NCBI GenBank assembly: GCA_937951485.1
Contig: CALEDJ010000065.1
Location: 1 to 20,831 of the forward strand
Length of the DNA: 20,831 bases
Source: an uncultured bacterium
Lineage (GTDB): Bacteria > Hydrogenedentota > Hydrogenedentia > Hydrogenedentales > CAILVY01
Direction: 5' to 3'
Shown: one piece after another, positions 16,014 to 20,831 of the stretch
Layout of the letters: each line of letters starts with the position of its first letter
Position numbering within the stretch: position 1 is the first letter of the stretch
Program-made: the position numbers and the translations under genes
The notes under the pieces: generated by a model
Told to the model about the DNA's origin: nothing
Database searches by the model: none
Seen by the model: the letters and a program-made list of their open reading frames with translations, nothing else

Positions 16014-16349
16014 CGCTGATACTCCCGGTTCTTCGGTATTGTTACGGCGCGCCGACTGCCGATCAGCACAGTTTATTTGCAGCATCTTAACACAATGGTG
16101 CGAATCGTCGGGGTGTTGTGCACTGTTGCTTGTATTCCCCCATGTTCTGCGCTTTTTTCTATATCAAGACGCCCTGCGCCGCTCGGAAAAGGCGCCAGGC
16201 ATGAAATGCCCATTGGACATTCCCGTGGCTGTTGTGTGAAACTTACCGAGTTTCCGAGCGCCGGAACGGTCTTCTTTTCGGCTGTGTTTTTCAAAGGGAA
16301 CAAGCGGAGTCTTTTCCCAAAACCATTTCCGCAATGATGGGAATTGCCA
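16014..16349. promoter_or_regulatory. Divergent intergenic region with operator-like dyads
   Basis: This 336-base region separates the minus-strand EEP gene from the plus-strand hydrolase and must hold both promoters. Seen in it are GAAACT-TACCG-AGTTTC (16238-16254), a perfect 6+6 dyad 96 bases before the hydrolase start, and GGCAT-GAA-ATGCC (16198-16210). Short open frames cross it on both strands but have no credible start signals. I could not assign convincing -35/-10 pairs. Confidence 0.4.
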
Positions 16350-17282
16350 ATGCGTAAAGCCTTGAAAATCACCGGTATCGTCATCGTCAGCGTCATTACG
16401 CTGTTGCTCCTGCTGAAACTGGTTGCAGACCTCCTTTACTTCAGCAACTATGACCCCTCCTTGCCATTCCGGGAGCGGGTGGCCGAGTTCGAGGAACGCC
16501 CGGAATACCGCCGCATCAAATTGTATTTTCAGGGCGCCGGCAACGAACAGGTACCCGCGCTCCTTACCTTCCCCAGGCAATTCCGGGGCAGGGTCCCCTG
16601 CATAATCTTTCTACACGGCATCGGACAGAAAAAGGAGTTCCTTGACGAAATCACCACGCCTTTCAATCAGAACGGCTTCGCCATGGCCACTTTCGACCAG
16701 TACATGCAGGGCGAACGCCGCGTCGAACAGACCATCCTCAAACAGGCCCGGGCCTTTCGGCAGCGCCCCGCCAAAACCGTCAACGACACCCGCCGGCTCA
16801 TTGACTATCTCTCAACCCATCCCGATATTGACGCAAACCGGATCTATGTGGTGGGCGCGAGTTACGGCGCGATCACCGGCAGCACCGCAGCCGCATTCGA
16901 CGATCGCATCAAGGCCATTGTGCTGGTCTATGGCGGCGGCAATCTCAACCGACTGCTGGAAGCCCCTCTGATCGCCAACGAACTCGGCAGGTGGCTGCCC
17001 GTGGCCAAACTCTTCGCTCAGTTCTATCTGTGGCCCGCCGACCCCGTCCGCTACGTTCATCGCATATCTCCCCGCCCCGTGCTGTTCCAAAACGGCCGCT
17101 ACGATGCCCTGGTCGCGCCGGGCGCCGCCGAGGCGCTTCAGAACGCCGCCGGAGAACCCAAGAAAATCACCTGGTACAACTCCGACCACATCGGCCTGGA
17201 TGAGGAGGTGGTGCGCCAGGTGCTCGAAGAGGCGCTGCACTGGCTTCTCGAACAGGACCGACCCCACCGAGAAGCAGCATAA
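16350..17282 (+). CDS. Membrane-anchored alpha/beta hydrolase
   Basis: A 310-residue hydrolase. Residues 6-30 form one uncleaved-looking transmembrane anchor (ITGIVIVSVITLLLLLKLVA), so the catalytic domain probably faces the periplasm. The fold landmarks are an oxyanion HG in FLHGIG (89-90), the nucleophile S171 in VVGASYGAITG, D252 in NGRYDALV and H280 in NSDHIGL, giving a complete Ser-Asp-His triad. The layout resembles the dienelactone hydrolase/acyl-peptide hydrolase-like group; the substrate is unknown (ester or peptide). The frame also has a TTG two codons earlier, but the ATG at 16350 has GGGA seven bases upstream. The gene is divergent from the EEP membrane protein and convergent with pyrC, ending 29 bases from it. 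Confidence 0.82.
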   Translation: MRKALKITGIVIVSVITLLLLLKLVADLLYFSNYDPSLPFRERVAEFEERPEYRRIKLYFQGAGNEQVPALLTFPRQFRGRVPCIIFLHGIGQKKEFLDEITTPFNQNGFAMATFDQYMQGERRVEQTILKQARAFRQRPAKTVNDTRRLIDYLSTHPDIDANRIYVVGASYGAITGSTAAAFDDRIKAIVLVYGGGNLNRLLEAPLIANELGRWLPVAKLFAQFYLWPADPVRYVHRISPRPVLFQNGRYDALVAPGAAEALQNAAGEPKKITWYNSDHIGLDEEVVRQVLEEALHWLLEQDRPHREAA

Positions 17283-17311: not shown

Positions 17312-18580
17312 TCAGTCGTGGTAAACGATGCGCCCGTCGCAGAGGGTATAGCGCACTTTGCCTTTGAGGGTCGCGCCGATGAAGGGGGAATTGCGGCTGA
17401 GGGAGGCGAAGTCTTCGGCGCGGACGGTCCACGCGGCGGCGGGATCGAAGATGCAGATGTCCGCCGGGCCGCCTTCGCGCAGCGCGCCCGCCCCGAGATT
17501 GCAGATGGCGGACGGGGCGGCGGTCATGAGCGCGATGGCGCGCTCGAGCGTGATGTGGCCGGGTTCGACCAGGCCGGTGATGACAAGTCCCAGCGCGGTT
17601 TCCAGCCCGATGATGCCGAAGGGGGCGAGGTCGAATTCCACGTTCTTTTCCGTCGGCGTGTGTGGGGCGTGGTCGGTAGCGATGCAGTCAATCGTGCCGT
17701 CCTTGATGCCGGCGATGATGGCGTTCACATCGGCCTGTTCGCGGAGCGGCGGGTTCATTTTCGCGTTGGTGTCGAATTCCCGGACCGCGTCGTCGGTGAG
17801 CATCCAGTAGTGGGGCGCGGTCTCACAGGTGACGCGCACGCCGCGCGCCTTGGCGCGGCGGACGATGTCCACCCCTTCCGCCGAAGTGACGTGCTGGACA
17901 TGCAGGCGCGTGCCGGTCATCTCGGCGAGCCGGACGTTGCGGTCAATGCGGATTTCCTCGGCGGCCTTGGGGATGCCGGGGATGCCGAGGACGGTCGAGG
18001 TGAATCCCTCGTTCATCGCGCCGCCTTCGGCAAGCGTCTCGTCTTCATTGTGGGTCATGGGGGTCAGCCCGGCCATGTCGGCGTATTGCAGCACGCGGCG
18101 CATGACGGCGCTGGAGGCGATGTCGCGTCCGTCGTCGGTGACCGCGACCGCGCCGACCTCCTTTAGTTCCGCCATTTCGGTGATTTCGGCGCCCTCCATG
18201 CCCTTGGTGGCGCATGCGGCGGGGCGGACCTTGATGCAGGCGGTCTCGCGGGCGCGCCGGATGATGAATTCGACCATGCCCGCGTTGTCAATCACGGGCC
18301 GCGTGTTCGCCATGGTGACGACGGTGGTGAAGCCGCCGCGCGCGGCGGCGCGGCTCCCGGATGCAATGGTTTCCTTGGACTCGAAGCCCGGTTCGCGAAA
18401 ATGCACATGGATATCCACCAAGCCGGGGCAGACCACGCAGCCCTGAGCATCAATGGTTTGAGTTCCTTTCACTTTCCCGCCCATTTTGGCGATCACGCCG
18501 TCCTTCACCAGCAGGTCCATCGGTTCGCTGAAGCCCGAAGCGGGGTCAATCACGCGTCCGTTCACAATGGCAAGACTCAT
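17312..18580 (-). CDS. pyrC: Dihydroorotase
   Basis: A 422-residue class I dihydroorotase of the amidohydrolase superfamily. It closes N-carbamoyl-L-aspartate to dihydroorotate, the third step of pyrimidine synthesis. Zinc and catalytic residues are all present: H58 and H60 in DIHVHFREPG, D150 in VTDDG, H177 in THNED, H230 in QHVTS, and D303 in ATDHAPH. Each is one position before the Bacillus PyrC equivalents as I recall them, and D150 is consistent with a bridging Asp rather than carbamylated lysine. It is therefore an active enzyme, not a PyrC-like partner (PyrX) that has lost its zinc site. AAGGAGAAGG lies upstream of the ATG. It follows pyrB by 32 bases. No clear terminator follows before the convergent hydrolase gene. 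Confidence 0.94.
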   Translation of the reverse strand: MSLAIVNGRVIDPASGFSEPMDLLVKDGVIAKMGGKVKGTQTIDAQGCVVCPGLVDIHVHFREPGFESKETIASGSRAAARGGFTTVVTMANTRPVIDNAGMVEFIIRRARETACIKVRPAACATKGMEGAEITEMAELKEVGAVAVTDDGRDIASSAVMRRVLQYADMAGLTPMTHNEDETLAEGGAMNEGFTSTVLGIPGIPKAAEEIRIDRNVRLAEMTGTRLHVQHVTSAEGVDIVRRAKARGVRVTCETAPHYWMLTDDAVREFDTNAKMNPPLREQADVNAIIAGIKDGTIDCIATDHAPHTPTEKNVEFDLAPFGIIGLETALGLVITGLVEPGHITLERAIALMTAAPSAICNLGAGALREGGPADICIFDPAAAWTVRAEDFASLSRNSPFIGATLKGKVRYTLCDGRIVYHD

Positions 18581-18612: not shown

Positions 18613-19590
18613 TCAGGCCGGGCGGCCGCTGTTCACCAGCAGGTGCATCACGGCCATGCGGATGGCGACGCCGTTGCTGACCTGCTCCAGTATGACGCTT
18701 CGCGGCCCGTCGGCCACCTCGGTGGCCAGTTCCAGGTCGCGGTTGATCGGCCCTGGGTGCATGATCAGGGCATGCGGCGGCGCATGCCGCAGCGATTCGT
18801 TGTCAATGCGAAAGAGGCGGATGTATTCGCGCAGGCTGGGGAACAACCCCTTGGCCTGGCGCTCCAACTGGATGCGTAGCGCATAGATCACGTCCGCATC
18901 GTGGATGGCCTCGCGGAGGCTGGTGGTCATCCGCACGCCCATCCGCTCCACATGCACGGGCATGAGCGTGCTCGGCCCGCAGAGCGTCACCTGCGCGCCC
19001 AGTTTGTTCAGCGCCCAGATGTTGCTGCGCGCCACCCGGCTGTGCTCGATGTCGCCAATGATGGCGACCTTCACGCCATCCAGTCCGGCGCAGGGGTCGC
19101 CCCGGCGCTTGCGGATATGCTCACGCATGGTGAAGGCGTCGAGCAGCGCCTGGGTGGGGTGCTCGTGGCGTCCGTCGCCCGCGTTGATGATGTGCGAGGC
19201 GTGCCGCGCCGCGAGGATGTGCGGCGCGCCGGCGGAACTGTGCCGGATTACGATCACATCGGTGTGCATGGCTTCGATGTTGGCCAGCGTGTCATGGAGG
19301 GTTTCGCCCTTGACCGCGCTGGAGGAGGAAGCGGTCATGCTGAGCGTGTCGGCGCTGAGCCGCTTGGCGGCGAGTTCAAAGGAGGTGCGGGTGCGCGTGC
19401 TGGGTTCATAGAACCAGTTCACCACGAGGCGGCCCTGGAGCAGGGGCACCTTCTTGATGCCGCTTTCGCGGCGGAAGACCGCCACGAACTGCGGCGCGGT
19501 GTCCAGAACCAGTTCAATTTCCTCACGGGAAAGGTCCTGAATTCCGATGAGGTCCTTGCGCGTCCAGACCGTGTGCCCCGATTCCGCCAT
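18613..19590 (-). CDS. pyrB: Aspartate carbamoyltransferase catalytic chain
   Basis: A 325-residue ATCase that joins carbamoyl phosphate and aspartate, the first committed pyrimidine step. Carbamoyl-phosphate loop STRTRTS (64-70), the loop lysine K94 in SSAVKGE, HPTQ (144-147), the LRIQLER aspartate-side stretch (238-244) and HPGPINR (278-284) are intact. No regulatory chain (PyrI) is nearby, so it is probably an unregulated trimer or an ATCase-dihydroorotase assembly with the adjacent PyrC (inference). The start is six bases after the pyrR stop. The only good ribosome-binding sequence, GGAGG, overlaps the pyrR end and lies about 14 bases upstream, which suggests translation by coupling to pyrR. 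Confidence 0.94.
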   Translation of the reverse strand: MAESGHTVWTRKDLIGIQDLSREEIELVLDTAPQFVAVFRRESGIKKVPLLQGRLVVNWFYEPSTRTRTSFELAAKRLSADTLSMTASSSSAVKGETLHDTLANIEAMHTDVIVIRHSSAGAPHILAARHASHIINAGDGRHEHPTQALLDAFTMREHIRKRRGDPCAGLDGVKVAIIGDIEHSRVARSNIWALNKLGAQVTLCGPSTLMPVHVERMGVRMTTSLREAIHDADVIYALRIQLERQAKGLFPSLREYIRLFRIDNESLRHAPPHALIMHPGPINRDLELATEVADGPRSVILEQVSNGVAIRMAVMHLLVNSGRPA

Positions 19591-19596
19591 GGGCTG

Positions 19597-20184
19597 TTAT
19601 GTTTCCTCCCCGGGCGCGGGCGCGGCGCGTTTTTCCAACAGCACCCCGTCCTCGCCGTCCGTCTCCTTCATACGCACGGCCACCCACTCGCCGGGAACCG
19701 TCGCCACCGGCCAGCCCAGATAATCTGCCTGAATCGGCAGTTCCCGCCCGCCCCGGTCAATCAGGCATGCCAGTTGAATGCGCTTGGGGCGGCCGTAATC
19801 CATGACTTCATCCATCGCGGCGCGGATGGTGCGGCCCGCCGCCAGCACGTCATCCACCAGCAGCACCGTCCGCCCGTCCACGTTGAAGGCGAAATGCGTT
19901 TCGCCCCGCAATTTCGGCAAGCCGATGCCCGTGCGGTAATCGTCGCGGTAAAGCGTGGTGGCGAGCGAACCGACCGGCGGGCGGAAGCCCGTCATGTCGC
20001 GAATCTGGTCTGCAATCCGGTCTGCCAGCGGGCGGCCCCGCCGCAGAATCCCCAGCAGCACCAGCGATTCGATATCCGGGTTGCCTGCCACGATCTCCTG
20101 TGCCAGACGGTGGATATGTGCGGCCATGGTCGCATCGTCCATGACCACCGTCCGCTCGATTGCACTGTCCTCCGGCGCGATCAT
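19597..20184 (-). CDS. pyrR: Pyrimidine operon regulator / uracil phosphoribosyltransferase
   Basis: A 195-residue PyrR. It binds UMP/UTP and a pyr mRNA hairpin to reduce expression of the operon, and may convert uracil plus PRPP to UMP. Motifs: LVLLGILRRGRPLADRI (41-57), SLATTLYRDD (73-82), the PRPP loop VLLVDDVLAAGRTI (107-120), and LIDRGGRELPIQADYLG (141-157), all typical of PyrR. It is a little longer than the usual 175-185 residues owing to a C-terminal tail after about 180. GAGGGG lies nine bases before the ATG and directly after an intrinsic terminator, so expression of the whole pyrRBC operon depends on read-through. Autoregulation by PyrR is established for the family; here it is inferred from the leader. 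Confidence 0.93.
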   Translation of the reverse strand: MIAPEDSAIERTVVMDDATMAAHIHRLAQEIVAGNPDIESLVLLGILRRGRPLADRIADQIRDMTGFRPPVGSLATTLYRDDYRTGIGLPKLRGETHFAFNVDGRTVLLVDDVLAAGRTIRAAMDEVMDYGRPKRIQLACLIDRGGRELPIQADYLGWPVATVPGEWVAVRMKETDGEDGVLLEKRAAPAPGEET

Positions 20185-20282
20185 CCCGTCGTCCCCTCAA
20201 AAAAACGCCTTCTCATCACCGTGAGAAGGTCGTCCGGTCGGCATTCGGCCTGCCTGTGGATCTGCTGAGGTGGATACCGCAC
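20181..20282 (-). CDS. Candidate pyr leader peptide (33 residues)
   Basis: A GTG at 20282 with AAGGA about eight bases upstream opens a 33-codon frame within the predicted pyr leader transcript. It passes through the terminator hairpin, where its T-run is read as RRRFFEG, and ends at a TGA that overlaps the pyrR ATG as ATGA. Reading through an attenuator in this way is the arrangement of the E. coli pyrL leader peptide. The peptide otherwise shows no domain and no sign of conservation can be judged here. It could equally be chance, so confidence is low. Confidence 0.3.
   Translation of the reverse strand: MRYPPQQIHRQAECRPDDLLTVMRRRFFEGTTG
20199..20229 (-). terminator. Intrinsic terminator (attenuator) in the pyrR leader
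   Basis: On the minus strand CCTTCTCA (20229-20222) pairs perfectly with TGAGAAGG (20215-20208) across the loop CGGTGA, followed by CG and seven T residues (20205-20199). It lies only 14 bases before the pyrR start codon and about 70 bases after the predicted transcription start. A terminator between a strong promoter and the first gene of a pyr operon is the hallmark of attenuation control. Confidence 0.85.
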
Positions 20283-20306
20283 GTATCGGTTTCCTTTTGC
20301 GATGCC

Positions 20307-20335
20307 ATTGTAGCAGGGTCGCCAGAGACTGTCAA
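20307..20335 (-). promoter_or_regulatory. Strong sigma-70 promoter of pyrRBC
   Basis: TTGACA (20335-20330) and TACAAT (20312-20307) are separated by exactly 17 bases on the minus strand: a perfect -35 and a five-of-six -10. Transcription should start near 20300, giving a leader of about 115 bases before pyrR. Confidence 0.85.
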
Positions 20336-20340
20336 ATGAC

Positions 20341-20831
20341 GCGCAAAGTTTTGCCGTGGAAAACAACGAAAAAGAGAAACAAAAAGGACACAAGGGACAA
20401 AAAGGACCCTTTGAATCCACGGGAATGTGCGTTGGTTGTTGCAGCGACTTCGCGGTGCTTCCTGCATTCTCTTCCGTCCCCTTTCTTCAGTTTATCCCAG
20501 TGCTGTCCAAAATATGCTTTGCGTTGAGAATAGCCTTCGATACATATTGGCCTTCCCCCTCACCCCACCCCTCTCCCGGAGGGAGAGGGAGTTATGAACC
20601 ATTATTCAGAAGGTCGTGGGAACCCCCACCCCTCTCCCGGAGGGAGAGGGAATTATGAACCATTATTCAGAAGATCGTGGGAACCCCCACCCCTCTCCCG
20701 CTGGCAGAGGGAGCGACAGCAGGCCGCAGGTGGCGCGCCAAACGCCCTCTCCCCCTGGGAGAGGGGTGGGGTGAGGGGAAACAAAACAGAACACCTTGGT
20801 ACACGGGTCATTGACGTCTCAGGAATCCCAC
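20341..20831. other. Non-coding right end with repeats
   Basis: No credible gene is seen in these 491 bases. The first part (20355-20420) is a purine-rich run of ACAAAAAGGAC-type words (GGACACAAGGGACAAAAAGGACC). The section 20556-20778 is the nested repeat described separately. The last 50 bases show nothing recognisable. Confidence 0.5.
20556..20778. repeat. 22-bp inverted repeat enclosing a 61-bp tandem repeat
   Basis: The outer arms 20556-20577 and 20757-20778 are perfect 22-base reverse complements of the CCCTCACCCCACCCCTCTCCC type. Between them a 61-base unit occurs at 20567-20627 and 20628-20688 with two differences, and a partial third copy starts at 20689. Each unit carries its own small hairpin, CTCTCCC-GGA-GGGAGAG. 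The unit also contains TTATGAACCATTATTCAGAAG. This is a dispersed palindromic repeat that has been locally duplicated. It is non-coding. Confidence 0.85.

Follow-up and report, generated by a model that had tools for sequence, protein, structure and literature searches.

A putative ribosome-coupled attenuator, apparently independent of PyrR, ahead of the pyrR-pyrB-pyrC operon of Candidatus Hydrogenedentota

The stretch of DNA analysed here (the window, 20,831 nucleotides) belongs to a Candidatus Hydrogenedentota genome (G000) and carries on its minus strand a pyrimidine operon in the order pyrR-pyrB-pyrC. Nearly all named relatives of the encoded PyrR come from Hydrogenedentota bins. The first gene (19597-20184) encodes a 195-residue protein of the PyrR family (NCBIfam NF003549, 189 bits) which, when aligned, lacks the residues matching H140, R146 and K152 of Bacillus subtilis PyrR. 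It is followed by pyrB, for aspartate carbamoyltransferase (18613-19590; NF002032, 395 bits), and by pyrC, for dihydroorotase (17312-18580; TIGR00857, 417 bits, above its cut-off). A sequence scan placed a promoter of the form TTGACA-17-TGCTACAAT ahead of pyrR on the same strand (20307-20335), with TTGACA at 20335-20330, a 17-nt spacer and a TGn-extended -10 box (TGC-TACAAT, the box at 20312-20307). It matches the consensus at 11 of 12 positions, and transcription is predicted to start near 20300. The sequence-only reading of this DNA had described a near-perfect promoter here, and that description holds, similar promoter-terminator spacing being found in relatives; the promoter is not decisive alone, because over 4.8 kb the scan returned two promoter-like sites, where shuffled sequence gave 0.8 +/- 0.9. 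The -10 box lies 77 nt 5' of the stem of an intrinsic terminator (20199-20229, minus strand), in which the arms CCTTCTCA and TGAGAAGG enclose CGGTGA (20229-20208) and are followed by CG and seven T residues (20205-20199). Both the 8-bp stem and the T run had been pointed out before and are present; the hairpin folded in isolation has an energy of -11.3 kcal/mol (z -4.07).

Other features of the window lie outside the leader. Upstream of the pyr promoter, at 20450-20780, there are two near-identical GC-rich repeats ending in CTTCTGAATAATGGTTCATAA, a 21-mer with a third exact copy elsewhere in the genome (G000:C36). At 16076-16396 (minus strand) a 107-residue reading frame with no Pfam or NCBIfam match adjoins a 685-residue protein of the endonuclease/exonuclease/phosphatase family. 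The pyrR-leader element was not seen upstream of carA in the same genome.

We then compared the leader with those of relatives, in 89 of 100 of which a pyrR-like sequence was detected. The terminator stands directly 5' of pyrR in 44 of the 60 loci examined from the order and is absent from the other 16. G003, one of the order genomes in which pyrR was not matched in full, is uninformative because its pyrB sits at a contig edge. A -10-like box occurs 41-77 nt 5' of the terminator in nearly all of the 44 loci, a count that includes unreliable promoter calls at L019, L023 and L057. In 35 of the 44 loci, drawn from 22 genera, the 5' arm of the stem reads CCTTCTC; the 3' arm varies (GAGAAGG, GAGAGGG, GGGAAGG, GAGGAGG), with pairing kept through G-U. 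As a strict pattern (CCTTCTC...GAGAAGG-T) the stem was matched in 17 genomes, in the pyrR leader only, and a relaxed pattern was matched in 32 of 68 genomes, with one site elsewhere (G037:C5) and the others (about 31) at pyrR leaders. Because these matches fall almost exclusively at pyrR leaders, the terminator is, on comparative grounds, a pyr-specific element, and a generic genome terminator is ruled out. The recurrence of the promoter and terminator spacing in relatives, together with a stem sequence specific to pyrR leaders, is by the same comparison beyond chance. The sequence-only reading had proposed transcription attenuation before pyrR-pyrB-pyrC and had named lack of conservation of the terminator as evidence against it; the terminator is conserved, and the proposal is well supported by the phylum-wide conservation of the layout.

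The window has two candidate leader reading frames that cross the stem of the terminator, both on the minus strand. Candidate A (20181-20282) begins with GTG, 9 nt after a possible Shine-Dalgarno sequence AAGGA (20292-20296), encodes 33 residues (VRYPPQQIHRQAECRPDDLLTVMRRRFFEGTTG) and runs through the terminator to a TGA that forms an ATGA overlap with the start codon of pyrR. Candidate B (20197-20244) begins with an ATG 15 nt before the stem, has no clear Shine-Dalgarno sequence, encodes 15 residues (MPTGRPSHGDEKAFF) and stops where the T run ends. The start is thus ambiguous between a GTG with and an ATG without a Shine-Dalgarno sequence; we prefer the GTG frame, because its ATGA overlap with pyrR matches that of relatives. 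The hairpin GATAC-GTGCG-GTATC noted earlier in the leader does exist (20287-20273), and its loop contains this GTG.

The leader frames of the order were assessed against 1000 dinucleotide shuffles in which stem and T run were held fixed, with genus weighting over 31 genera, a weighting that lowers the effect of relatedness without removing it. ATG frames open past the stem scored 23.5 against 14.9 +/- 2.4 in the shuffles, where frames crossed the short GC-rich stem by chance in about half of the loci. Frames with an ATG and a Shine-Dalgarno sequence that are open into the stem scored 12.8 against 2.7 +/- 1.4, and stops overlapping the pyrR start as ATGA or GTGA 10.4 against 3.4 +/- 1.5. An ATG 9-20 nt 5' of the CCTTCTC core scored 16.0 against 7.4 +/- 2.2, the distance classes having been picked partly after inspection of the data. 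None of the 1000 shuffles reached the observed value in any of these four comparisons. When GTG and TTG starts were allowed the excess of openness was smaller (reached by 1 to 3 of 1000 shuffles) and that of the ATGA/GTGA overlap was still reached by none. Pairs of related loci retain the leader frame through compensating +1/-1 indels (L004/L012) or three single-base insertions (L010/L011), and in L033 the frame remains open over the 107 nt that follow the stem, up to a point 3 nt short of pyrR. In compact leaders of the order the ATG lies 13-17 nt 5' of the CCTTCTC core and, in the seven measured, 38-40 nt from the T run. The frame terminates within the stem in L003, L034, L035 and L040, and L047 has no leader frame under the rules applied. 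Different genera read the stem in different frames, and its sequence is therefore not conserved on account of the codons it contains. By eye, the leader peptides share no common amino-acid run, and many of them reach the stem after 4-5 codons. An amino-acid leader peptide of the trp/his type was rejected, there being no regulatory codon run and no alternative fold.

Transcription attenuation in pyr operons may also be exerted by PyrR on RNA, the mechanism that the sequence-only reading had considered while remarking that the usual PyrR-binding loop was not obvious. We searched the window leader with the Rfam model of this element (RF00515) and obtained no match even at E <= 10; a search with Rfam, at the gathering cut-off and at E <= 10, returned nothing relevant. 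The sequence AGATCCACAGGCAGGCC is present in the leader and was rejected as a PyrR loop on the silence of RF00515 at E <= 10. None of the 68 genomes of the order had a match over the cut-off (the best below it reached 31.8 bits), and the model passed the cut-off in 4 of 14 control genomes, including those of B. subtilis and Thermus composti. Four weak matches (26-32 bits) occur in one Hydrogenedentota genome (G023), at L065, L068, L069 and L070. Structure was likewise no more abundant than in shuffles: over 42 leaders the mean z was -0.08 for the leader fold and +0.33 for pairing of the leader with the 5' arm of the stem as an antiterminator. The whole leader of the window folds with z -1.4, and with z -0.35 once the terminator is removed.

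The PyrR proteins of the order point the same way. Among 60 of them, H140 is kept in one and K152 in three, and none has both of these residues of the basic RNA-binding surface; the position of R146 is occupied by Q in 55. R141, E142 and the PRPP loop are retained. Residues of the H140/R146/K152 type reportedly act in RNA binding by PyrR, according to work by Savacool and Switzer in 2002. Their association with the loop was computed here in the outgroups, where H140 and K152 occur together at all 9 of the loci that RF00515 matches (E < 0.1) and at 6 of the 15 that it does not match (Fisher p = 0.007). One family of loci (f7) encodes PyrR and aspartate carbamoyltransferase as a fusion, in a single reading frame of 535-568 residues (L054:1543-3150, plus strand; L058:436-2142, minus strand). 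At L054 Pfam gives the phosphoribosyltransferase domain and then both carbamoyltransferase domains, and G020 and G025 have the same fusion, judged by the length of the open frame. The attenuator was not found upstream of the f7 fusion loci.

The sequence-only reading thus stands in its attenuation layout and is not borne out in its PyrR-RNA mechanism: folding, the Rfam search and the comparison of leaders that it had suggested yielded neither antiterminator pairing above shuffles nor a PyrR loop over the Rfam cut-off in the window or in the order, and PyrR-RNA attenuation is not supported in the order by these comparisons. It had also overlooked the frames that cross the terminator. Its other suggestion, control of another kind, fits better, with the PyrR loop and the loop-linked residues of PyrR both absent.

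Since both the RNA site and the PyrR residues are absent, whether the operon is transcribed probably depends on a ribosome on the leader. On balance we lean towards an attenuator in which this ribosome acts as the antiterminator and pyrimidines are sensed through the speed of RNA polymerase, independently of PyrR. Polymerase starting at the promoter would make a short leader and then meet the CCUUCUC...GAGAAGG-U7 terminator. With no ribosome on the leader frame, the hairpin would form and transcription would stop. A ribosome initiating on the frame, often 13-17 nt 5' of the stem, would mask the 5' arm and allow read-through; in many species it would then terminate at the ATGA overlap, from which it could restart on pyrR. 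When CTP and UTP are low, polymerase would move slowly over CCUUCUC and U7, so that a ribosome could load meanwhile, and by the presumed geometry a ribosome starting at the leader ATG would reach the 5' arm while the polymerase is at the U run. The ribosomal step is supported by the comparison, which shows promoter, terminator and leader frame conserved and the PyrR loop and its linked residues absent; the competition between ribosome and hairpin we infer. Such sensing of a pyrimidine shortage, by polymerase slowing on the 5' arm and the U run, would resemble that of Escherichia coli pyrBI. It is favoured by the finding that no pyrimidine runs other than this arm and the T run are conserved; against it, leaders of the order contain 16.5% U and show no evident U-rich pause region upstream of the kind known from pyrBI. 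The evidence is comparative and comes mostly from metagenome bins, and a literature search found no paper on pyr control in Hydrogenedentota.

The leader frame and terminator could also attenuate in answer to another signal, either overall translation capacity or a protein that recognises the CCUUCUC arm, which we consider rather unlikely. A 5' arm held constant as CCTTCTC in so many genera, beside a 3' arm that drifts through G-U pairs, and the restriction of the stem sequence to pyrR leaders speak for this reading; there is, however, no candidate protein, and the conservation of the arm may reflect only the terminator and the pacing of polymerase. Quite improbable, in our judgement, is control with a diverged site, of the kind described for Thermus, in which UMP-loaded PyrR would bind the leader close to the ribosome-binding site of its frame and prevent translation of that frame, so that the terminator forms. 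It would agree with the position of pyrR as first gene of the operon and with outgroup loci (L063, L107, L134, L136, L141, L147 and, by eye, L135) that have a PyrR loop directly 5' of the leader Shine-Dalgarno sequence. Against it, the model found no such loop over cut-off in the 68 genomes, leader structure does not exceed that of shuffles, H140, R146 and K152 are lost from PyrR, and two leaders of the same family (L003, L006) have only about 20 nt between the -10 box and the leader ATG. That there is no control of termination, the frame merely feeding ribosomes to pyrR by restart at ATGA and the hairpin acting as a weak constitutive brake, seems highly improbable: the ATGA/GTGA overlap is in excess, and reinitiation downstream of a closely spaced leader gene may enhance translation (PMC4833913), but the stem of the terminator and the sequence of that stem are conserved phylum-wide though the leader frame varies in sequence and in reading frame. 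Attenuation of the Bacillus type with an RNA antiterminator can practically be dismissed, for although pyrR, terminator and pyr operon are all present, there is no PyrR loop, antiterminator pairing does not exceed shuffles and the leader is too short for three alternative hairpins.

If the ribosome-coupled reading is right, this leader shows one attenuation system swapping its sensor while terminator and operon persist, and it adds a phylum, represented here by metagenome bins only, to those with ribosome-coupled pyr attenuation. The loss of PyrR residues in parallel with that of the loop would also make it possible to tell from sequence which PyrR proteins still regulate RNA, useful because many are labelled 'bifunctional regulators' by homology alone.

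The leader shares features with three known systems. With the pyr attenuators of B. subtilis (RF00515) it has in common a terminator 5' of the pyr genes and a PyrR-family protein; it differs in having neither the ARUCCAGAGAGGYU loop nor an antiterminator, and in the altered residues of PyrR. With E. coli pyrBI/pyrL it shares a terminator within a leader frame, in a pyrimidine operon. The E. coli leader gene has 135 bp and pause sites and its operon no pyrR, whereas the Hydrogenedentota leader is shorter, U-poor before the stem and followed by pyrR. In E. coli, a ribosome whose stop codon lies close to a terminator represses it, an effect lost at distances above about 27-30 nt; at normal UTP the pyrBI terminator, which is located within its leader gene, escapes this repression (PMC4824070). 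The pyrBI hairpin is kept from forming when ribosome and polymerase are tightly coupled (PMC5021804, PMC4824070).

The third system is that of Thermus strain ZO5, for whose pyrR-pyrB-bbc-pyrC leader Van de Casteele et al. are reported to have proposed, in 1997, a PyrR loop and a reading frame through the terminator. This architecture, which we checked on the Thermus-like locus L063, is shared with Hydrogenedentota in that pyrR comes first, the leader is short, a frame runs through an intrinsic terminator and no RNA antiterminator is needed. At L063 the leader Shine-Dalgarno sequence adjoins a PyrR loop, and the PyrR protein carries H140, R146 and K152, whereas Hydrogenedentota lack both; no PyrR loop abutting the Shine-Dalgarno sequence was found in leaders of the order. 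The outgroups L063, L107, L134, L136, L141 and L147 all have the PyrR loop, a leader ATG 0-9 nt past the searched motif and a frame running into or through the terminator, and L135 appears by eye to have the same layout. The combination occurs in several lineages, at some loci below the RF00515 cut-off, and Thermus-type control may be common across lineages. More tentatively, an ancestral leader frame gated by PyrR could have become, across the phylum, a PyrR-independent sensor relying on the ribosome only, with the pyrimidine arm of the stem pacing the polymerase and PyrR left as an enzyme only, a course that we regard as possible but doubtful. Because these outgroups combine PyrR loop, leader frame and terminator, the Hydrogenedentota leader looks, on the simplest reading, like a Thermus-type attenuator minus its PyrR half.
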